Shown here piece after piece: positions 1,287 through 39,526 of a stretch of 41,011 nt of DNA. Every line of letters starts with the position of its first letter. The first letter of the stretch is position 1. Both the position numbers and the translations under genes were made by a program. Below the pieces are notes generated by a model that ran no database searches, was not told where the DNA came from, and worked only from the letters and a program-made list of their open reading frames with translations. Source of the DNA: a virus; the IMG/VR virus record IMGVR_UViG_3300047321_000055, positions 1 to 41,011 of that record; one strand, given 5' to 3'.

Positions 1287-1325
1287 CCCCAACTGAGCTA
1301 ACCTCAAAGTTGACTCAGTTTGGGA
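1287..1325 (+). other. attP: Probable attP
   Basis: The site lies directly before the integrase. From memory of the phiC31 attP, the outer arms match (CCCCAACTG on the left, CTCAGTT on the right, and a shared TAACCT in between) with the same spacing. The imperfect inverted repeat AACTGAG (1291-1297) / CTCAGTT (1314-1320) is centred on bases 1305-1306. This places the predicted crossover dinucleotide at CA instead of the TT of phiC31. The site overlaps the upstream edge of the integrase reading frame. Confidence 0.75.
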
Positions 1326-1337
1326 TACCGTAGAGGC

Positions 1338-3113
1338 ATGACACCAGGGGTGGTTACCGGGATGGCGATCCACGCGGCGGGTTACGACAGACAGTCGTAC
1401 GCGAAGGAAAATCAAAGCGTAGCGTCACCAGCCTCACAGCGGGCAGCGAACGAGAAAGCCGCATCGGACCTTCGTCAGCGCGGGGAAGACGTCACGTGGG
1501 TTGGCCACTTCTCCGAAGCCCCCGGCACGTCCGCCTTCGGTTCCGCTGAACGCCCGCAGTTCGAACGGCTGTTGAGCGAGTGCCGGCGCGGCCATGTGAA
1601 CATGATCTTCGTCATGTACGTGAGCCGCTTCTCCCGGCTCGACCCGCTTGAAGCAATTCCCATCGTGACCGAGTTGCTCAACATCGGTGTCACGATCGTG
1701 TCCGTTACGGAGGGTACATTCCGTAAGGGCAACATTATGGATCTGATCCATATCATCATGCGTCTGGACGCCGCGCATAACGAAAGCAAAAACAAATCTG
1801 ACGCTATTCAGGGGGTTAAAGAATCGGCAAAGGCGCTCGGTGGCTATTTGGGTGGGCGACCCCCGTACGGCTTTATGATGGTGCCTCAGAACGTGCCAGT
1901 GGGCGACGGCAAACACATCACAATTCAGACGCTTCAGCATTCGACGGAGAAGCTTTCCGGGCCGCTCAAGAGTGAGCCTGCGGTGATCCGCGAGATGTGG
2001 GCGCGCATTCAAAAGCACCGTGACACACCGTTCATTCCGTCCGGGCCGGGAGTAGGCCACCCAGGCTCGATCAGCGGGATTTGCGCAGCGTTCGAGACAG
2101 AAGGCGTACCGACACGAGGCAACGCCGTAGGCAAACTCACAGCGGGTAGCACGTGGGACGCCGCTGTCGTTAAGCGCATCTTGCGTGACCCGCGCGTTGC
2201 CGGCTTTCAGGCTGACCCCGTGTACAAGACAGACGCCGCCGGTAAGAAGACGTACACGATCACGGAGTACCGCATTAGGCGCGACCCCGTCACCATGGCG
2301 CCGCTGACGCTCGACTGTGGGCCCATCCTCCCGCCGGACGAATGGCACGACCTACAAGGGTGGTTGGACGGCAGAGGGCGCGGCAAGGGGTTGTCACGGG
2401 GGCAAGCACTGCTGTCCGCCATGGGCCGGCTGTACTGCGAGTGTGGGGCGAACGGTTCAGGCCACAAGGCAGGCAGCATCGGAGCAACCTACCGATGTAC
2501 ACGGCGGCGGAAGCTTCCCGGACAGCACGAGGGCGGCAACACGGTCAACATGGCAGCGCTCGACCAGTACGTTGCCGGCCGCATCATGGCGCGCATCGGT
2601 ACCGCTGACCACGAGGACGAAGCCACGCTAGCCATGCTGTGGGAAGCCACGAGGCGCTTCGGCAAGCTGACAGAAGCCCCTGAGACGACCGGTGAGCGCG
2701 CGTCACTCCTCTCCGAACGACACGACGCGCTAGGGGCGCTGAACGAGCTGTACGAGGACCGGGCGGCCGGCGGGTATGGCGGGGCGATCGGACGCAAGCA
2801 CTTCCTGAAGGCTGAGGCAGCGGCAACGGCACGGCTACAGGGGGCGGAAGCCCGGCTAGCCGAACTCGACCAAGCACAGAACCCGATCATGCCCATTGGC
2901 GAGTGGCTGGGTGAGCCTGGCACTGACCCGACCGGGCCCGACTCGTGGTGGGGGCGCAGCGCGATGCCGGAGCGACGGGCGTTCGTTGCACTGTTCATCG
3001 ACCGCATAGAGATCCTACGGAACCCGTCGGCAGGGGCGCAGACACCCGTGGAACAGCGCGTACGGCTCACGTGGGCAACGCCGGAAGAGACCGAGGACGA
3101 AGCGGCAGCGTAG
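1338..3113 (+). CDS. int: Large serine integrase, phiC31 type
   Basis: This is the site-specific recombinase that inserts the phage genome at an attB using the attP just upstream. The N-terminal resolvase domain (about 1-160) has the catalytic serine in GYDRQS (Ser20 from this start) and the typical VSRFSRL and long helix DLIHIIMRLDAAHNES. A recombinase domain follows (LGGRPPYGF, RILRDPRVAGF), then a zinc-ribbon region (YCECG...YRCTRRR), a coiled-coil section and a WWGRSAMPERRAFVALFIDRI end. Overall it follows phiC31 Int closely and is about 591 aa against 605-613. ATG 1338 matches the longer phiC31 form; ATG 1362 matches the shorter one. A fourth zinc cysteine expected after GQHEG is not seen. 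Confidence 0.97.
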   Translation: MTPGVVTGMAIHAAGYDRQSYAKENQSVASPASQRAANEKAASDLRQRGEDVTWVGHFSEAPGTSAFGSAERPQFERLLSECRRGHVNMIFVMYVSRFSRLDPLEAIPIVTELLNIGVTIVSVTEGTFRKGNIMDLIHIIMRLDAAHNESKNKSDAIQGVKESAKALGGYLGGRPPYGFMMVPQNVPVGDGKHITIQTLQHSTEKLSGPLKSEPAVIREMWARIQKHRDTPFIPSGPGVGHPGSISGICAAFETEGVPTRGNAVGKLTAGSTWDAAVVKRILRDPRVAGFQADPVYKTDAAGKKTYTITEYRIRRDPVTMAPLTLDCGPILPPDEWHDLQGWLDGRGRGKGLSRGQALLSAMGRLYCECGANGSGHKAGSIGATYRCTRRRKLPGQHEGGNTVNMAALDQYVAGRIMARIGTADHEDEATLAMLWEATRRFGKLTEAPETTGERASLLSERHDALGALNELYEDRAAGGYGGAIGRKHFLKAEAAATARLQGAEARLAELDQAQNPIMPIGEWLGEPGTDPTGPDSWWGRSAMPERRAFVALFIDRIEILRNPSAGAQTPVEQRVRLTWATPEETEDEAAA

Positions 3114-3482: not shown

Positions 3483-3552
3483 GCTTCCGTAGCTCAATGG
3501 GCAGAGCAGCCACCGCAAGTGGATTGCGCAGGTTCGAATCCAGCCGGAAGCA
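3483..3552 (+). tRNA. tRNA-like gene, possible anticodon GCA (Cys)
   Basis: The acceptor stem (GCTTCCG/CGGAAGC) and D stem (GCTC/GAGC) are perfect, and the T loop TTCGAAT is canonical. The anticodon arm is poor: with a seven-base loop CCGCAAG the anticodon is GCA, but the stem has a mismatch, position 33 is C, and one or two bases are missing around position 26 and the variable loop. The T stem has one mismatch. It may be a decayed or atypical tRNA. No CCA is encoded. Confidence 0.55.
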
Positions 3553-3633: not shown

Positions 3634-3660
3634 CCAGCCTACTCACGGTGAGTAGGCTGG
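3634..3660. promoter_or_regulatory. Operator palindrome 1 (27-bp perfect)
   Basis: The ACTCACGGTGAGT core (3641-3653) is extended on both sides by CCAGCCT/AGGCTGG to a perfect 27-bp palindrome with a single central G. It is the longest of the family. It lies 20 bases before the HNH gene start at 3681 and could also fold as an RNA hairpin. Confidence 0.75.
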
Positions 3661-4126: not shown

Positions 4127-4207
4127 CCGCTGTTGGTGGAACGGTAGACACGTCCGGCTTAGGCCCGGATGCCTTCGGGCATGGGGGTTCGAATCCCTCA
4201 CAGCGGA
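4127..4207 (+). tRNA. tRNA-Leu (anticodon UAG)
   Basis: It folds as a type II tRNA. The acceptor is CCGCTGT/ACAGCGG and the D stem GTG/CAC. The anticodon stem TCCGG/CCGGA is perfect, with loop CTTAGGC (anticodon TAG). The long variable arm is TGCC-TTCG-GGCA and the T arm GGGGG-TTCGAAT-CCCTC. The discriminator is A; no CCA is encoded. It reads CUA, a codon rare in Streptomyces but frequent in this phage's late genes. Confidence 0.93.
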
Positions 4208-4268: not shown

Positions 4269-4343
4269 GTGGGTATGGCTCAGCCTGGCCAGAGCGCTCC
4301 GTTTGGGACGGAGAGGACGCGGGTTCGAATCCCGCTGCCCGCA
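4269..4343 (+). tRNA. tRNA-Pro (anticodon UGG)
   Basis: The acceptor GTGGGTA pairs with TGCCCGC (two G-T pairs), and the D stem is GCTC/GAGC. The anticodon stem CTCCG/CGGAG is perfect with loop TTTGGGA (anticodon TGG). The T arm is GCGGG-TTCGAAT-CCCGC. The discriminator is A and no CCA is encoded. It reads CCA, and probably other CCN codons. Confidence 0.93.
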
Positions 4344-7084: not shown

Positions 7085-8566
7085 GTGGCTACATACGGTG
7101 AAGCACTATCGCTCGTTCAGCTACTTGAGAACGAGCTACTAAACCGACGTCCGCGTATCCAGCGGCATTCGGCGTATTACCAGGGTGAGCAGAAGCTAGC
7201 GTTTGCGTCTGATCAGTTCCGCAAGTTCCACGGTGACCGGTACCGCGATTTTGCGGACAACTGGGTACAGGTGACGTCCGACAGTCCGGTTGAGCGACTG
7301 ACCGTGAACGGCGTTCTGCCCGCCGGCATGACTGAGGCTGATAAGGAGTCGTGGCGTGTCTGGCAGATGAACGCGCTTGACGCTGACTCGCAGCTTGGGT
7401 TCCTCGGCGCTGTCAACAGTGGGCGCAGCTTCGTGCTGGTCTGGGGCAACCCGGATGATCCGGAGACGCCTGAGGTGACGTTCGAGGATGCCTCACAGTG
7501 CATTGTCGCGTACGTGCCTGGTTCTCGCCGGAAGCGTCGTGCCGCGCTGAAGCGTTGGGATGACGGGCCGCGAAGTTTCGCCACGCTGTACCTTGCGGAC
7601 CAAGTGTGGAAGTTCGAGCGGCCACTACTGGGTGCTAGCACCAAGACACCGCAGATGCAAAGCGTTGACGATGAGCTAGAGCGGTGGCTCCCGCGCGACA
7701 TGGGTGACGAGCCGAACCCTCAGCCGAACCCAATGGGGGTAGTTCCGATTGTGGAACTCCCTAACCGGCCGATGCTGGCAGGTGAGCCCGTGAGTGATAT
7801 CGCGGGTGTGATCGCCATGCAGGATGCGGTAAACCTCCTGTGGGCGCAGTTGTTCACCGCTGCCGATTACGCGTCGTTCCCTCAGCGCATCGTTCTTGGT
7901 GCCGAGGTGCCGGAAATTCCGATCCTTGACGAGACCGGGCAGATTGTTGGTTCGCGCCCGGTGGATATGGAGCGTTTCGCGGTTGACCGGGTGATGTTCT
8001 TCACGGGTGATGACGTCAAGGTCACTGAGTGGACTGCGGCGAATCTTGAGGCGTACACCAACGTGATGGAAGTGGCCGTTGGTCACATTGCCGCGCAGAC
8101 GCGAACGCCTCAGCATTACCTGATTGGCAAGATGGCGAATCTGTCCGGTGACGCGCTGTTGGCCGCTGAGACTGGTCTAGTCAAGCGGGTTGAGGAAAAG
8201 CAGATTTGGTTTGGTCAGGCGTTGCGCGAGATGTTCCGCCTGATCGCGCTCGCGCAGGGTGACGACAGCAAGGCGAAGGCTATTGCCGGCGGACGTGTTC
8301 TGTGGGCTGACGCCGAATCGCGCAGTCAGGCGCAACAGGCTGACGCGCTGCTGAAGCTGAAACAGATTGGTTTCCCTTTCGAGTTCCTGGCGCTGCGCTT
8401 CGGCATCACGCCGACTGAGCTAGCCGACATTCTGCTGATGCGGGAGAAGGAACTACAGGCTGACCCCATGGGCGCGTTCACGTCGCTGATGGCACGTGAT
8501 CCGGCGCAGGGAGACACCACGAATGGCAGCAAGTTGGCGGGCACAGCGGCACCAACAGCAGCGTGA
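7085..8566 (+). CDS. Portal protein (493 aa)
   Basis: The protein starts GEALSLVQLLENELLNRRPRIQRHSAYYQGEQKLAFAS and resembles SPP1 gp6-type portals common in Gram-positive siphophages. It should form the ring at one capsid vertex for DNA entry and exit. A strong AAAGGAG lies just before the GTG start. The first 20 codons contain four CTA leucine codons (L8, L13, L18, L19), which links the gene to the phage tRNA-Leu(UAG). The 3' end overlaps the start of the MuF-type gene by 44 bases. Confidence 0.9.
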   Translation: MATYGEALSLVQLLENELLNRRPRIQRHSAYYQGEQKLAFASDQFRKFHGDRYRDFADNWVQVTSDSPVERLTVNGVLPAGMTEADKESWRVWQMNALDADSQLGFLGAVNSGRSFVLVWGNPDDPETPEVTFEDASQCIVAYVPGSRRKRRAALKRWDDGPRSFATLYLADQVWKFERPLLGASTKTPQMQSVDDELERWLPRDMGDEPNPQPNPMGVVPIVELPNRPMLAGEPVSDIAGVIAMQDAVNLLWAQLFTAADYASFPQRIVLGAEVPEIPILDETGQIVGSRPVDMERFAVDRVMFFTGDDVKVTEWTAANLEAYTNVMEVAVGHIAAQTRTPQHYLIGKMANLSGDALLAAETGLVKRVEEKQIWFGQALREMFRLIALAQGDDSKAKAIAGGRVLWADAESRSQAQQADALLKLKQIGFPFEFLALRFGITPTELADILLMREKELQADPMGAFTSLMARDPAQGDTTNGSKLAGTAAPTAA

Positions 8567-9431
8567 GGCACTAGCGGACGCTACGGCGCGCGCGGTTCTC
8601 GCTGAGTGGGCGAAGGTCAATCCGGACGATGTGGCGCGCGATTGGGCGCGTTTGCTTCCGAAGGTCACGGCGTATGTGCAGTCTGGTCAGCTTCACGCGG
8701 CCGAAGGCACGCACACGTTTATGCGCGAACTGTTGGGCGCTGACGCTGATTTGAGTCCGCAGATTGTGCCTGAACAGTTCGCGTCACAAACGCCCGACGG
8801 GCGAGACGCTATGGGTTTGCTCGCAAGAGCGGTTCCGAATGCGATTACTGCGCGCCGTAAGGGGTTCAGTCCGCGTGCCGCAATGGCGCGTGCCGCTGGG
8901 TTCCTGGACATGGTTGTGCGCACCGTGGTCGCTGACACTGGCCGGCAGGCTGATCAGGCGGCGATGGTGGCCAACAAGGGTGTGACCGGCTACGTGCGCG
9001 TTGTGGAGCTTCCCGCGTGCTCCCGGTGCATCATCTTGGCCGGCCGCGAGTACGGCGTTTCTAGCGGGTTCCTGCGGCATCCTCGCTGCGATTGCACGAT
9101 GGAGCCTGTCACGCGCAAGCATATGCCGACACCACTTCGGCCGGCCGACCTGTTCGACAGCATGACCCCCGCCCAACGACGCAAGATCTTTGGCGAAGCT
9201 GGGGCTAAGGCGATTCAGGATGGGGCGCGCATCTCCAGCGTGGTCAACGCTCGCAAGAGTATGGATCGCGTCGAGATGTTCGGCAAGACGGTACAGGTGA
9301 CGCATGTCGGCACCGGTAGCAGGAAGAACCCGCGCCCCCCGCGTCTGATGCCGGAAGAGATTTACCGGCTGGCAGGCGACGACCGTAACCACGCTGTTCG
9401 ACTTCTCTTCAAGAACGGCTATCTCCGCTAG
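8523..9431 (+). CDS. MuF-type head morphogenesis protein (302 aa)
   Basis: The position after the portal and the central motif ELPACSRCIILAGREYGVSSGFLRHPRCDCTMEPV (CxxC, then HPRCDC) mark this as a phage Mu F / SPP1 gp7-type minor head protein, present in few copies near the portal. ATG 8523 is chosen because GGGAG lies at the right distance; an upstream in-frame GTG at 8496 would extend deeper into the portal gene. No toxin-like C-terminal extension is seen. Confidence 0.85.
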   Translation: MAASWRAQRHQQQREALADATARAVLAEWAKVNPDDVARDWARLLPKVTAYVQSGQLHAAEGTHTFMRELLGADADLSPQIVPEQFASQTPDGRDAMGLLARAVPNAITARRKGFSPRAAMARAAGFLDMVVRTVVADTGRQADQAAMVANKGVTGYVRVVELPACSRCIILAGREYGVSSGFLRHPRCDCTMEPVTRKHMPTPLRPADLFDSMTPAQRRKIFGEAGAKAIQDGARISSVVNARKSMDRVEMFGKTVQVTHVGTGSRKNPRPPRLMPEEIYRLAGDDRNHAVRLLFKNGYLR

Positions 9432-23215: not shown

Positions 23216-23237
23216 GCGTTCCGGGTTGTGCGAACCC

Positions 23238-23249
23238 ACTCACGTGAGT
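23238..23249. promoter_or_regulatory. Operator palindrome 3 (12-bp form)
   Basis: ACTCACGTGAGT, without the central extra base, lies between the late terminator and the putative repressor promoter. Its centre is about 32.5 bp, roughly three helical turns, from the next operator. Confidence 0.7.
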
Positions 23250-23269
23250 AGCCTTCAGTTCTCGGTCCT

Positions 23270-23338: not shown

Positions 23339-24703
23339 ATGCCGAAGAAGGGTGAGCGCCTACCGTGGCGCCTGACTTTCCAGTACGCCGGACAGGCTGA
23401 GCAGAACCGTCCGTTCGATACGGCGGAGCGTGCCGAGTACCTGGCGGATGAAATCGTGAAGGCCGCACAGCTTCGCGACAGTGCCGTCACCCTCACGATC
23501 AGCAACCGTGACACGGGTGAGAGCTACAGCTTTCCCCGGACAGGAGACGACATGCCCCCGAAGAAGAAGACCGAAGCCGCGCCGGCTCAGGCAGCGAACG
23601 CCGACGTTGACGCGCTGATCAGCGACGTTCACGCGACGATCGATCAAATCAAGGAGATCAAGCCGGATGACGAAGGCGCGGCCACGCTTGCCGCTGACCT
23701 GAAGGCTGAGGCTGAGACGAAGATCCGCGAGCTTCCGACGGCGAAGCGTACGGCACTGCGGAAGGCTGCGCGGGAAGCGTACGAGGTGGCGACCACGAAG
23801 CCGGAGCCGGAGCCCGCACCCGCCGCTGAGGTGGCCACGATCAGTGATGACCCGATGAAGTGGGCGCACGTGCCCGAACTCATTGCGGTCGGCGTCGAGA
23901 AGATGCGCGAAGGCACCGAAGCCGGCATGAAGCTGACTTCTGCCGGCGAAGTGGTGGCCAACGTTCTCCTGACGATCCGTCAGAACATGGTTGACCCTGA
24001 GACGGGCCTGCCGGATATCCCGTGGCGCATGAAGGCGACCCGCAACGCCGCCAGCAAGGTGTACGACGACGCACTCAAGGGTGTCAGCGAAGACGACGTC
24101 GAGCGCCGTGCCGCCCATGCTTCGCTGATCAAGGCCACGCAGAACAAGGCGAGTGACGTTCTCGTTGACTGGTTGCGCGGCTATACCCGTGAGGACATCG
24201 AGCTTCTGCGGGAGATCTTCCCCGCTGCCGCTGACGCCGTTGAGGCTGACAAGGAGCTGACGCCGGAGTCCGCTATCCGCGCGCTGTACGCCGACCATGG
24301 GGTTGAACTTCCGCTGCGTGGCCGCACTGAGCAGATGCGTCTCAATCGCCGCGTCGAGAAGATCCAGCAGCATGCGAAGGAACTTGAGGCGGCCGAAGAC
24401 GCGGGCAACGGCGCACGGGTGGAGGAGCTGAAGGCCGCCATCAGCGATCTTCGGGCGGACCTTCCCGCTGACGTGCTTCCGGCGCTCGACGTCAAGGAGA
24501 AGACCGACGCGGAGCGCACGACTGAGGCGGTGGCGAAGCTGCGCAAGGATCTTGAGTCGGCCGGCAAGCGGTTCGCGAAGGTCAAGAGCACGGCGCAGAA
24601 GCGCAAGGTGAAGTCGGACCTGTACAGCCTGATCAGGGAAGCAGCGGAGGCGTTCGAGCTTGACCTGAGCGCGCTCGTGCCGGCGGAAGAGAACGGCGAG
24701 TAA
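23339..24703 (+). CDS. Putative immunity repressor with nested in-frame start (454 aa and 383 aa)
   Basis: The gene has its own host-type promoter, two operators upstream and a terminator after it, placed between late and early blocks. It has two starts with good ribosome sites: ATG 23339 (AAGGGG) and in-frame ATG 23552 (AGGAG), both opening with MPxKK-like residues. Products would be about 49 and 41 kDa. The phiC31 repressor gene c likewise makes several N-terminally different proteins with a common C-terminal part of about 42 kDa. The common part is helical and charged; a clear HTH is not seen. The repressor call rests on context. Confidence 0.55.
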   Translation: MPKKGERLPWRLTFQYAGQAEQNRPFDTAERAEYLADEIVKAAQLRDSAVTLTISNRDTGESYSFPRTGDDMPPKKKTEAAPAQAANADVDALISDVHATIDQIKEIKPDDEGAATLAADLKAEAETKIRELPTAKRTALRKAAREAYEVATTKPEPEPAPAAEVATISDDPMKWAHVPELIAVGVEKMREGTEAGMKLTSAGEVVANVLLTIRQNMVDPETGLPDIPWRMKATRNAASKVYDDALKGVSEDDVERRAAHASLIKATQNKASDVLVDWLRGYTREDIELLREIFPAAADAVEADKELTPESAIRALYADHGVELPLRGRTEQMRLNRRVEKIQQHAKELEAAEDAGNGARVEELKAAISDLRADLPADVLPALDVKEKTDAERTTEAVAKLRKDLESAGKRFAKVKSTAQKRKVKSDLYSLIREAAEAFELDLSALVPAEENGE

Positions 24704-33858: not shown

Positions 33859-33977
33859 CGCTGGCATATGCCCGACTCGTACATCCAAAGGATGAGACGC
33901 GGTCACGCCTTCGAATCCCTGTAACCCCCTTCCGGCCCGTGCGGGTCATCACGGGTGCCCGGACGGAAATCGAACCT

Positions 33978-33989
33978 ACTCACGTGAGT
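33978..33989. promoter_or_regulatory. Operator palindrome 7 (12-bp form)
   Basis: ACTCACGTGAGT in the context CCTACTCACGTGAGTGTG. A TATGTT sequence lies about 12 bases downstream and could be a -10, but no good -35 is seen. Confidence 0.65.
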
Positions 33990-34132
33990 GTGTTCGGGTT
34001 ATGTTCGAGCTGCACGACGGACCGGAACTGATCAACCCCCGTCGGCAAGAGTCGGTGACCTTGATTGGTTGCCCTCACCTGCCCGCACGTGGGGTGAGCC
34101 TTGCCGTGAAGCGGTTGTGACGCACTCCGTCG

Positions 34133-34188: not shown

Positions 34189-35376
34189 ATGCTGTCCTTC
34201 GACACCATCAAGGCCGCGCAGAACCACGACGACATCAGCGTCCGGCTCACCGCTCAGCGCGAAGTGATCGAGCACATCGAGTCCCGTGTTACCGCTCTTG
34301 CCACTCAGGCAGCGCACCGTATGGCCCCTCACGGTGGTGACCGCTACGCCGACTACCGGGATGAGTTCGCGCAGGTTGGCCGTGTCGCTGCGTTCGAAGC
34401 CATTGACCGCTTCACCGACACGACGGTTGACGCGTTCGAGCGCTTCGTGTTCACGACCGTTCAGCGCACGCTGTTGGACGCTGTGCGGGCTGAGCGCAAC
34501 GGGATGGGCGCTGACGACATGGCCGTGAAGATCTTCGCTGCGATGATCGAAGCCGCCGATGGCGACGTGTACGAGGCTGAGAAGCTTGCGCAGACCATTC
34601 CGCCGAAGGGTCGACGTCTGAGCGCTCAGCGTGCCAATGCGGCACGTCTCGCGTGGCAGGGCGCCATCTCCATCGACAAGGTCTCTGGGGCAGCGAAGGA
34701 CAGCGAAGCCAACGGCTCGCTCGCTGACACGCTTGCGCACCACGACGAAGAGGTTGACGGCGAGATTCGCCCGAAGGTTGGCCGTGGCGCCGTGATCGAG
34801 GCGGCTCACGTGCTTGAGCGGTACGTGACCGTTCCGACGGACCACAAGGCGCGCAAGTTCGTCGCACACGCCCTGCACTACGCCCGCGCGGGTCTCGCTA
34901 CTCCGGACACCGTTGAGGCGCTTGAGGACGTCATCAGTGTGCCGCGTGACCCGCAGACGCGCCGCTACGTGCTCGACGCCATGGCCGTTCTCGCTGCCGC
35001 TGTTTCCACTGCCACGGAAGGCGCCGTTGATGACGAGCTGATGGGTGCTTCGGACGTTCGCCGCGCTGACGATTCCGCGAAGCACGCACGTGTGAACTCC
35101 GTCCTTGACTCCATGGGCAAGGCTCAGCGGGACGTCCTTCGCCACTCGTTCGGCATCGGTGACGTGCTCGATTTCGGGTGGGGCGACGGGTGCGACCTGC
35201 CCGGGCTGTGCGAGTTCCTGGGCATGACGTACGACAACGCGAAGCAGCACCGGGCGAAGGGGCGCAAGTCGTTCGCGAAGCGCTACGTGGCCGTTGTGGG
35301 GCTCGACAAGCCCGCCTATGCCGCTGTCCTTGAAGCCGCTGCCGCCGCGAATCTGAAGAACGGTGGGCGCAAGTAA
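34189..35376 (+). CDS. Sigma-factor-like protein (395 aa)
   Basis: The N-terminal part (YADYRDEFAQVGRVAAFEAIDRFTDTTVDAFERFVFTTVQRTLLDAVRAE, about 45-100) reads like sigma70 region 2. The C-terminal part (HARVNSVLDSMGKAQRDVLRHSFGIGDV...LCEFLGMTYDNAKQHRAKGRKSFAKRY, about 300-365) reads like region 4 with its helix-turn-helix. The 200 residues between are not recognisable. It could direct host RNA polymerase to phage promoters such as the two 104-bp elements. ATG 34189 follows the leader arm AGGGAG. Confidence 0.7.
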   Translation: MLSFDTIKAAQNHDDISVRLTAQREVIEHIESRVTALATQAAHRMAPHGGDRYADYRDEFAQVGRVAAFEAIDRFTDTTVDAFERFVFTTVQRTLLDAVRAERNGMGADDMAVKIFAAMIEAADGDVYEAEKLAQTIPPKGRRLSAQRANAARLAWQGAISIDKVSGAAKDSEANGSLADTLAHHDEEVDGEIRPKVGRGAVIEAAHVLERYVTVPTDHKARKFVAHALHYARAGLATPDTVEALEDVISVPRDPQTRRYVLDAMAVLAAAVSTATEGAVDDELMGASDVRRADDSAKHARVNSVLDSMGKAQRDVLRHSFGIGDVLDFGWGDGCDLPGLCEFLGMTYDNAKQHRAKGRKSFAKRYVAVVGLDKPAYAAVLEAAAAANLKNGGRK

Positions 35377-35682: not shown

Positions 35683-35768
35683 GCCCCGGTAGCTCAACGG
35701 AAGAGCATCCCGACCTAGGGCCCGTAAGGGTGCAAGGGACGACGCGGGTTCGAATCCCGTCCGGGGCA
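35683..35768 (+). tRNA. tRNA-like gene with enlarged anticodon arm
   Basis: The acceptor (GCCCCGG/CCGGGGC), D stem (GCTC/GAGC) and T arm (GCGGG-TTCGAAT-CCCGT) are sound. The 37 bases between D and T stems form no normal anticodon arm. TCCC/GGGA can close it, but the loop is then far too large and holds an inner hairpin GCCC-GTAA-GGGT. Removing about 15 bases would give a normal class I tRNA. The anticodon cannot be assigned. Confidence 0.55.
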
Positions 35769-38460: not shown

Positions 38461-38857
38461 GCGCCCCGATTGGGACACGTACTTTCTCAACCTTGCCGCT
38501 GTTGTGTCGTCGCGCGCTGACTGTACGCGCTCGCAGGTTGGTGCCGTTCTGGTGAACGCTTCGAACGAAGTGCGCGGCACGGGTTACAACGGGGCGCCGG
38601 CCGGAGTGCCAGGGTGCGCTTCAGCGGGTGCGTGTCCGCGCGGTCAGCTCACGTACGAGCAGTGCGCGGCGAACACGGATTACAGCAACTGTGTGGCCGA
38701 CCACGCCGAACGGAACGCGATTCGTCACGCACCTGCCGCTGAGCTTCCGGGCGCGACGCTGTATGTGACTCGTTCGCCGTGTCCTTCGTGCTGGACGCTG
38801 ATCCGTGCGAGCGGGATTCGTCGCGTCGTGACACCGGAGGTTGACCTACTCACGTGA
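38453..38857 (+). CDS. dCMP deaminase (134 aa)
   Basis: The zinc and catalytic motifs are DHAERNAI (His84, Glu86) and PCPSC (Cys110, Cys113), the cytidine/deoxycytidylate deaminase signature. A Cys-rich insertion (GCASAGACPRG...EQCAANTDYSNC) matches phage dCMP deaminases. The enzyme turns dCMP into dUMP, the ThyX substrate. It overlaps its neighbours at both ends; its stop codon lies inside operator palindrome 9. Confidence 0.92.
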   Translation: MPERPDWDTYFLNLAAVVSSRADCTRSQVGAVLVNASNEVRGTGYNGAPAGVPGCASAGACPRGQLTYEQCAANTDYSNCVADHAERNAIRHAPAAELPGATLYVTRSPCPSCWTLIRASGIRRVVTPEVDLLT

Positions 38858-38859
38858 GC
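38848..38859. promoter_or_regulatory. Operator palindrome 9 (12-bp form, one mismatch)
   Basis: ACTCACGTGAGC in the context TTGACCTACTCACGTGAG, the same string as at the promoter at 39013. Here no -10 follows at the right distance. It contains the stop of the deaminase gene and the GTG start of the next gene. Confidence 0.6.
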
Positions 38860-39033
38860 CGCTACGGCGTAGGTAGGGACAAGCGCGCGTGGTTCGTGAC
38901 ACGAGATGATGCGCGGGTGCGGGGCATAGGCGTGTTCAGGCACAAGGCTGACGCTGAGCACGTTGCGGCACGGCGGAACGAGGGTAAGCGCACGTACGGC
39001 ACCCTTCCTTCCTTGACCTACTCACGTGAGTAG
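38854..39033 (+). CDS. Hypothetical basic protein (59 aa)
   Basis: The GTG overlaps the deaminase stop (GTGA). The product (VSRYGVGRDKRAWFVTRDDARVRGIGVFRHKADAEHVAARRNEGKRTYGTLPSLTYSRE) is basic and compact, with alternating strands and a helix. Its last codons and stop fall within the operator-promoter at 39013-39041. No family is recognised. Confidence 0.65.
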   Translation: MSRYGVGRDKRAWFVTRDDARVRGIGVFRHKADAEHVAARRNEGKRTYGTLPSLTYSRE

Positions 39034-39041
39034 GTTAGAGT
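39013..39041 (+). promoter_or_regulatory. Sigma70-type promoter with operator 10 in its spacer
   Basis: TTGACC (39013-39018) and TAGAGT (39036-39041) are spaced by exactly 17 bases, close to the Streptomyces consensus. The perfect 18-bp palindrome CCTACTCACGTGAGTAGG (39017-39034) fills the spacer. A bound repressor would block polymerase directly. It drives the zinc-ribbon gene at 39079. Confidence 0.82.
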
Positions 39042-39078
39042 CTTCCTTGTCAGCAGGAAACGACGAAGGGAAGAGACC

Positions 39079-39255
39079 ATGTTCCGGCACCAGTGCAGCG
39101 AGTGCGGCAAGACCGACTATCGACTGATCGCGGGCAACGTGTACGGGTGCCCCTCGTGCAACAAGCGGGTCAAGCCGAGTGACTTCAGCCTTGATGAAGG
39201 CGAGCGGATCGCGACCGACGAAGCCGGGTACATGGTGATCATGCTCCCCGCCTAA
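39079..39255 (+). CDS. Small zinc-ribbon protein (58 aa)
   Basis: MFRHQCSECGKTDYRLIAGNVYGCPSCNKRVKPSDF carries two CxxC knuckles, a rubredoxin-like zinc ribbon. The acidic C-terminal part (LDEGERIATDEAGYMVIMLPA) follows. It has its own operator-controlled promoter and terminator, so it is a single-gene unit switched off by the repressor. ATG 39079 follows GAAGGGAAG. Zinc ribbons of this size often contact RNA polymerase or nucleic acid; a regulatory role is only inferred. Confidence 0.75.
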   Translation: MFRHQCSECGKTDYRLIAGNVYGCPSCNKRVKPSDFSLDEGERIATDEAGYMVIMLPA

Positions 39256-39263
39256 ACCGGCCG

Positions 39264-39304
39264 AAAACCCCCAACCTACTCATTGCGAGTGGGTTGGGGG
39301 TTTT
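39264..39304. terminator. Bidirectional terminator with operator core (operator 11)
   Basis: AAAACCCCCAACC and GGTTGGGGGTTTT form a long stem with A/T runs at both ends. The centre ACTCATTGCGAGT (39278-39290) is a degenerate form of the operator core. As at 36712, operator and terminator coincide. Confidence 0.85.
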
Positions 39305-39331: not shown

Positions 39332-39526
39332 TTGACACTCGTTCAACTTACCTCTCAGGCAAGGAAACCTTTCATCCTGGCGTGTGTCAGTGGTCGGGCG
39401 TAGAGTCGCCCACACGTTCGAGCGACACACGAAACCTTCACGAGTCCTTCGGATTGATGACACACGCCGTTAGGTGTACGCCTCAGGTACTGGCCACGCC
39501 AAGCCTGTGGGACGACTCACATGAGC
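39332..39526. promoter_or_regulatory. Control region of a cargo gene
   Basis: A TTGACA at 39332 lies in a short inverted repeat (GTTGA...TCAAC). TAGAGT at 39401-39406 is a possible -10. An exact 11-bp inverted repeat GGCGTGTGTCA (39379-39389) / TGACACACGCC (39458-39468) flanks it, with a further GACACACG between. ACTCACATGAGC at 39515-39526 is a weak operator-like site. No gene is called between 39305 and 39579. Confidence 0.5.

Follow-up and report, generated by a model that had tools for sequence, protein, structure and literature searches.

Why a gene for a protein of only 58 residues should lie between a promoter filled by a palindrome and a terminator of its own is the question raised by a short locus in the 41,011-nucleotide viral DNA analyzed here (IMG/VR record IMGVR_UViG_3300047321_000055; hereafter, the window). 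A preliminary description had taken such care as the mark of an immediate-early regulator that starts the lytic cycle once repressor is lost. We favor, with a probability of about 80%, a different reading, in which the locus is a single-gene, c-controlled early cassette of a phiC31-family temperate Streptomyces phage and its gene is an exchangeable accessory cargo, not a lytic switch. The locus comprises the following features.

38844..38863, unstranded: half-decayed conserved inverted repeat (CIR), ACCTACTCACGTGAGCCGCT, at the end of the dCMP deaminase gene
38854..39033, + strand: 59-aa open reading frame (orf59), with about 91% DNA identity in L018 and L125
39013..39018, + strand: -35 hexamer TTGACC
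39016..39035, unstranded: perfect 20-bp palindrome, ACCTACTCACGTGAGTAGGT, a predicted operator of the phiC31-family CIR type
39036..39041, + strand: -10 hexamer TAGAGT
39042..39078, + strand: untranslated leader with ribosome-binding site, common to other CIR promoters of the family
39079..39255, + strand: cargo gene for the 58-aa zinc-ribbon protein (CxxC-x14-CxxC)
39264..39304, + strand: intrinsic terminator hairpin whose loop end is the CIR-like CCTACTCATTGCGAGTGGG (39275-39293)

By BLAST, the window falls among the phiC31-like Streptomyces phages Samora, Vash, Lilbooboo, Euratis, phiBT1, TG1, and phiC31, and the gene order around the dCMP deaminase gene was the same in the window as in the named phiC31-like relatives. 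Judging from gene order, the contig appears to be permuted relative to the named genomes, and both of its ends seem to fall in the pre-integrase region. Further features elsewhere in the window are as follows.

1320-3113: serine integrase
23234..23253, unstranded: CIR-type operator with 3 mismatches, upstream of the repressor gene
23339..24703, + strand: c repressor gene (454 aa; PF25746, Streptomyces phage repressor protein c)
33974..33993, unstranded: CIR-type operator with 2 mismatches, upstream of the sigma-factor-like gene
34189..35376, + strand: gene for a phiC31 gp12-like protein with sigma-70 region 2

An Rfam search of the window returned tRNAs only, namely four tRNA genes (3483-3552, 4127-4207, 4269-4343, and 35683-35768); the one at 35683 sits among early genes, like the tRNA-Gly of Lilbooboo.

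The promoter named in the preliminary description, TTGACC-17-TAGAGT, is present at 39013-39041, with 17 nt separating the two hexamers. A match to the E. coli consensus is by itself weak evidence, one such promoter being found against 0.6 expected in shuffled sequences. Two relatives nevertheless preserve both hexamers and the 17-nt spacing (TTGACG-17-TAGATT in L018 and TTGACC-17-TATAGT in L125), and TAGAGT is closer to the actinomycete -10 consensus of Streptomyces promoters, TAGRRT, than to the E. coli consensus. The DNA of the promoter and leader is also similar to the promoters of Euratis gp46, which encodes a different 50-aa CxxC protein (E=3e-5), and of phiBT1 gp19.2 (E=4e-3).

The palindrome overlaps the final three bases of the -35 hexamer and adjoins the -10 box. 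It is perfect, as had been proposed, but measures 20 bp rather than the 18 bp originally given. Its central 18 bases are the same as CIR7 and CIR8 of the phiC31 GenBank record X91149, in which both are labeled as protein_bind features for the repressor ("conserved inverted repeat"), and the operator identity of the window palindrome rests on this annotation. The core TACTCACGTGAGTA with CC/GG flanks occurs as near-identical 20-bp copies in phiBT1 (16 copies) and Samora (15 copies), the core is also repeated in phiC31, Vash, Lilbooboo, and Shawty, and the layout with the palindrome in the promoter spacer recurs across the phiC31 family. Allowing up to 3 mismatches, we found four CIR matches in the window against none in 100 shuffles. 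The even-spaced, CACGTG-centered sites lie at 23234, 33974, 38844 (half-decayed), and 39016 (perfect). At the place equivalent to 38844, phiBT1 and Samora carry a perfect palindrome upstream of gp21; in the window, this half-site was considered as a second promoter and rejected, there being no -10 box at the proper spacing. The outer palindrome position is altered on both sides in L018 (CCTAC..GTAGG to CGTAC..GTACG), a symmetric change that fits the expectation for a dimer-binding site. The flank in L125 is asymmetric (CCTAC..GTACC), indicating that strict conservation is limited to the 14-bp core.

The c protein encoded in the window matched PF25746 with an E-value of 1.6e-122 and a score of 410 against a cut-off of 27 bits. 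Its identity to the c proteins of eleven named relatives ranges from 38 to 72%, with 72% for Euratis and 43-47% for phiC31 and phiBT1; since the latter values are no higher, we infer recognition of the 39016 site from the conservation of the site. The correspondence of the palindrome core to annotated phiC31 repressor sites, along with the presence of a PF25746 repressor gene in the same genome, bears out the proposal of a repressor-blocked promoter at 39013-39041, which is thus a well-supported prediction. With a phage repressor site between its promoter hexamers, the gene would be expected to be silent during lysogeny and to be switched on early in the absence of repressor. The palindrome and the c repressor belong to a studied phage family, and the kind of switch is already known.

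The gene had likewise been recognized correctly as a small zinc-ribbon gene, with a 58-aa open reading frame carrying CxxC-x14-CxxC and a coding status supported by dN/dS. Its single detectable homologue (L005/L018) is 86% identical with all four Cys kept, so that the motif is invariant in both proteins. Comparison of the window with L018 gave dN=0.08 and dS=0.28, and the resulting dN/dS of about 0.3, based on one sequence pair, points to a real protein gene. The search of IMG/VR yielded one homologue; a scan of the genome contigs for relatives found none, and tblastn against 50,697 phage records found no homologue at E<=1. Searches of Pfam, PHROGs, and NCBIfam with the protein gave nothing above cut-off. 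AlphaFold2 modeled a confident small beta-fold (mean pLDDT of 91; strands at residues 15-18, 21-23, 43-46, and 51-55), and with two CxxC knuckles in this beta-rich fold, the product is predicted to be a zinc ribbon.

The terminator hairpin has a folding energy of -35.5 kcal/mol (z = -7) on the + strand. The - strand version reaches -31.1 kcal/mol with one interrupted pair, because a G-U pair turns into A-C, and no convincing - strand gene was seen by the terminator. The earlier claim of a bidirectional terminator therefore holds for the strong + strand hairpin but not for full bidirectionality. CCTACTCATTGCGAGTGGG carries an extra central base as well as the G-U pair, and hence is not an intact operator. 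In the window, L018, L125, and Euratis, a 19-nt CIR-like sequence carrying a single additional central base is found within ten hairpins whose outer stems are 6 bp or longer, and every one of the ten has GAGTG, which gives the G-U pair. CIR-like terminator hairpins with the extra central base, and usually the G-U pair, were located at 3638, 36720, and 39275 in the window, at 4319, 9903, and 11960 in L018, at 4753 and 7881 in L125, and at 8688, 14703, and 15941 in L012. The exception is the site at Euratis 11977, which is even-spaced with long outer arms and lies upstream of the gp12-like gene; since no T run follows, it is taken as an operator.

The terminators of phiC31, phiBT1, Samora, Vash, Lilbooboo, and Shawty carry CIRs with the even spacing of operators. 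RemusLoopin, Sebastisaurus, and Heather have promoters with CTCTTAAGAG and terminators with CTCTCAAGAG and a G-U pair. These comparisons suggest that, in two groups, terminators retain the RNA hairpin without the full operator. We found no paper on hairpin-preserving broken operators in the open-access literature searched, which is not proof of novelty. The difference between the even-spaced terminator CIRs of the phiC31/phiBT1 lineage and the broken ones of the window and Euratis makes a repressor function at terminators testable.

The comparison with L125 separates the gene from its surroundings. The window and L125 are 91% identical in the upstream orf59, 83% across promoter plus leader, 84% over the terminator, and 81% in the non-coding DNA further downstream, whereas the value is 47% in the cargo gene, the two genes being unrelated and of different length. 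Within the same promoter/terminator frame, L125 encodes at 7531-7860 a 109-aa Cys-rich protein ending in CDCSCGGANHGSSF; this protein had no Pfam match, and its gene could be a functional analogue of the zinc-ribbon gene. Phages phiBT1, Samora, and phiC31 fill the slot behind their deaminase gene with differing gp21 proteins, again between a CIR promoter and a CIR-bearing terminator. The phiBT1/phiC31 gp21 types, gp19.2, and the four-Cys gp46/47 of Euratis and Heather are further cargos that occupy the equivalent slot or follow a CIR-type promoter. Slot cargos were Cys-richer than other small genes (Mann-Whitney p=0.002; n=9, a set picked post hoc whose members share ancestry). The notion that all cargos are zinc proteins was discarded, given that gp19.2 has no Cys, and the Cys enrichment remains a lead only. 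The 59-aa open reading frame is flanked by an 18-nt direct repeat, TTGACCTACTCACGTGAG, at 38841 and 39013 (172 nt apart; 38841-39030), an arrangement that may be compatible with gene insertion via recombination at CIRs.

Several other arrangements were observed in these genomes. L043 carries two tandem one-gene units at 8101-9000, with genes of 146 and 86 aa; the units have near-identical CIR promoters and leaders, TTGAACCTACTCACGTGAGTAGGTTAAGCT before each, and a hairpin behind each. A second, unrelated four-Cys small protein (MQCGxCSG..PCPxCPDGG) is encoded behind a CIR promoter in Euratis, Heather, and RemusLoopin (L012 15664-15816; L016 16809-16961; L013 16918-17070). At 39377-39410 of the window, upstream of the gp22-like gene, lies the near-palindrome CTGGCRTRTGTCAG with a GTA...T box after it, conserved in eight phages. 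This element is possibly a second, different operator-promoter; the corresponding place in phiC31 holds a CIR.

How the zinc-ribbon protein acts can be weighed against these data. As an immediate-early transcription regulator, it would bind host RNA polymerase or phage promoters and launch the lytic cascade. The strong host-type promoter with its predicted direct repressor control is in keeping with such a role, zinc ribbons are common among transcription proteins, and a Foldseek search of BFVD returned generic zinc-ribbon matches, none significant, the weak viral ones including RNA polymerase subunits (all E>0.3). The protein is, however, near neutral in charge (7 K/R and 8 D/E by count), which does not suggest a nucleic-acid-binding role, and it lacks a significant fold or family match. 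Conservation across phages with the same circuit, as expected of a master regulator, is not what we found: there were 0 homologues in the 50,697 phage records, named relatives included, and a non-homologous gene occupies the same, near-identical frame of L125. A gene swapped out between such close neighbors is unlikely to be required for the start of lytic growth. A better candidate for an early regulator is the gp12-like protein with sigma-70 region 2, a conserved protein whose gene is preceded by a CIR of its own at 33974. Lytic initiation by the zinc-ribbon protein, as put forward in the preliminary description, is therefore unlikely, and the care spent on its expression does not single out a master regulator, since the same kind of operator-promoter and leader precedes many genes of the family.

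Similarly doubtful is a classical moron, namely, an accessory gene equipped with a promoter and terminator of its own, active in the prophage and useful to the lysogen. Its self-contained promoter-gene-terminator unit and sporadic distribution would agree with this, but the operator fills the promoter, which predicts no expression in the lysogen, and the base composition of the gene is phage-like (GC3 of 0.88 vs 0.80 for the polymerase gene). That the protein mimics eL43 at the ribosome is very improbable. The best sequence and fold matches of the protein were eL43/L37ae zinc ribbons (phmmer E=0.0017 over residues 4-39; top Foldseek matches in the PDB over 30 columns with an rmsd of about 1.5, not significant), but they fell below the curated family cut-offs (PF01780, 16.2 vs 21.9 bits; NF003058, 15.5 vs 87 bits) and cover the zinc-knuckle geometry only. 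Moreover, eL43 is not known from bacterial ribosomes. We regard as possible, if tentative, a specific form of the best explanation, in which the product is a counter-defense or host-inhibition protein needed in the first minutes, with a target such as a nuclease or the host polymerase. An early promoter, small size, rapid turnover, and Cys-rich cargos are typical of early host-directed phage genes, and this locus combines an early-type promoter and a small product with fast cargo turnover and Cys-rich alternative cargos; on the other hand, the Pfam, PHROGs, and NCBIfam searches revealed no homology to known inhibitors.

The exchangeable-cargo reading can be put as a model. The sequence supports the layout of the unit, the identification of the operator, the presence of a repressor gene, and the exchange of cargo; we infer that c binds the 39016 site, that expression is early, that the gene is dispensable, and how and on what the protein acts. 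In the lysogen, c bound to the 20-bp CIR in the promoter spacer would block host RNA polymerase; during infection before c builds up, or upon induction, the vegetative host holoenzyme would initiate at TTGACC-17-TAGAGT. Both the block and the immediate transcription without c are suggested by the identity and position of the operator. One short mRNA would encode the zinc-ribbon protein and end at the 39264-39304 terminator. The promoter-operator-leader and the terminator would constitute a conserved frame around a cargo gene that phages exchange, and such exchange makes an optional host-directed accessory the most likely role of the protein. It is probably a host-directed adaptor, by prediction a small zinc-stabilized one that would bind and modify a host protein early in infection. 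The gene itself is probably dispensable, a view that, with two zinc-ribbon sequences only, rests on its absence elsewhere.

More generally, the phiC31-like frame of c-operator promoter, leader, and CIR-derived terminator may be a plug-in exchange cassette for small, often Cys-rich early genes, in which recombination within the frame, including the CIR, swaps the cargo, and from which the window lineage uncoupled the terminator from the operator via the central base and the G-U pair; we consider the odds of this proposal to be even. The lytic-trigger guess is thereby turned into a simpler claim, that c-controlled early promoters are standard slots for interchangeable small genes. If this is true, scans for CIR promoters would list early, probably host-directed Streptomyces phage genes of unknown function.

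The locus resembles several known systems in part. It shares two CxxC knuckles and, in the model, beta-hairpins with the eL43/L37ae zinc ribbons, although the protein is under every family cut-off and shows no sign of common descent. Stoperators, the repeated repressor sites of Cluster A mycobacteriophages and phage R4 (PMC10276819), are likewise spread over temperate actinophage genomes, but a stoperator is an elongation block, whereas the window site is a promoter operator. Like morons, the accessory loci of prophages (PMC7067206), the unit couples a single gene to a dedicated promoter and terminator and is sporadically distributed, with another gene at the locus in L125; unlike them, it is predicted to be silent in the lysogen owing to the operator. 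The closest parallels are within the family. With the phiC31-family CIRs and repressor c, the window shares the palindrome core, the PF25746 repressor, and the promoter use, while it differs in that it has four CIR-type sites where phiBT1 has about 16, and in that its terminators contain broken CIR-like hairpins instead of intact ones. The gp21 and gp19.2 units of phiBT1 and the gp21 unit of phiC31 similarly lie after (gp21) or just before (gp19.2) the deaminase gene, with a CIR-associated promoter in front and, for the gp21 units, a terminator behind, but they encode unrelated proteins, and their gp21 terminator holds an even-spaced CIR.
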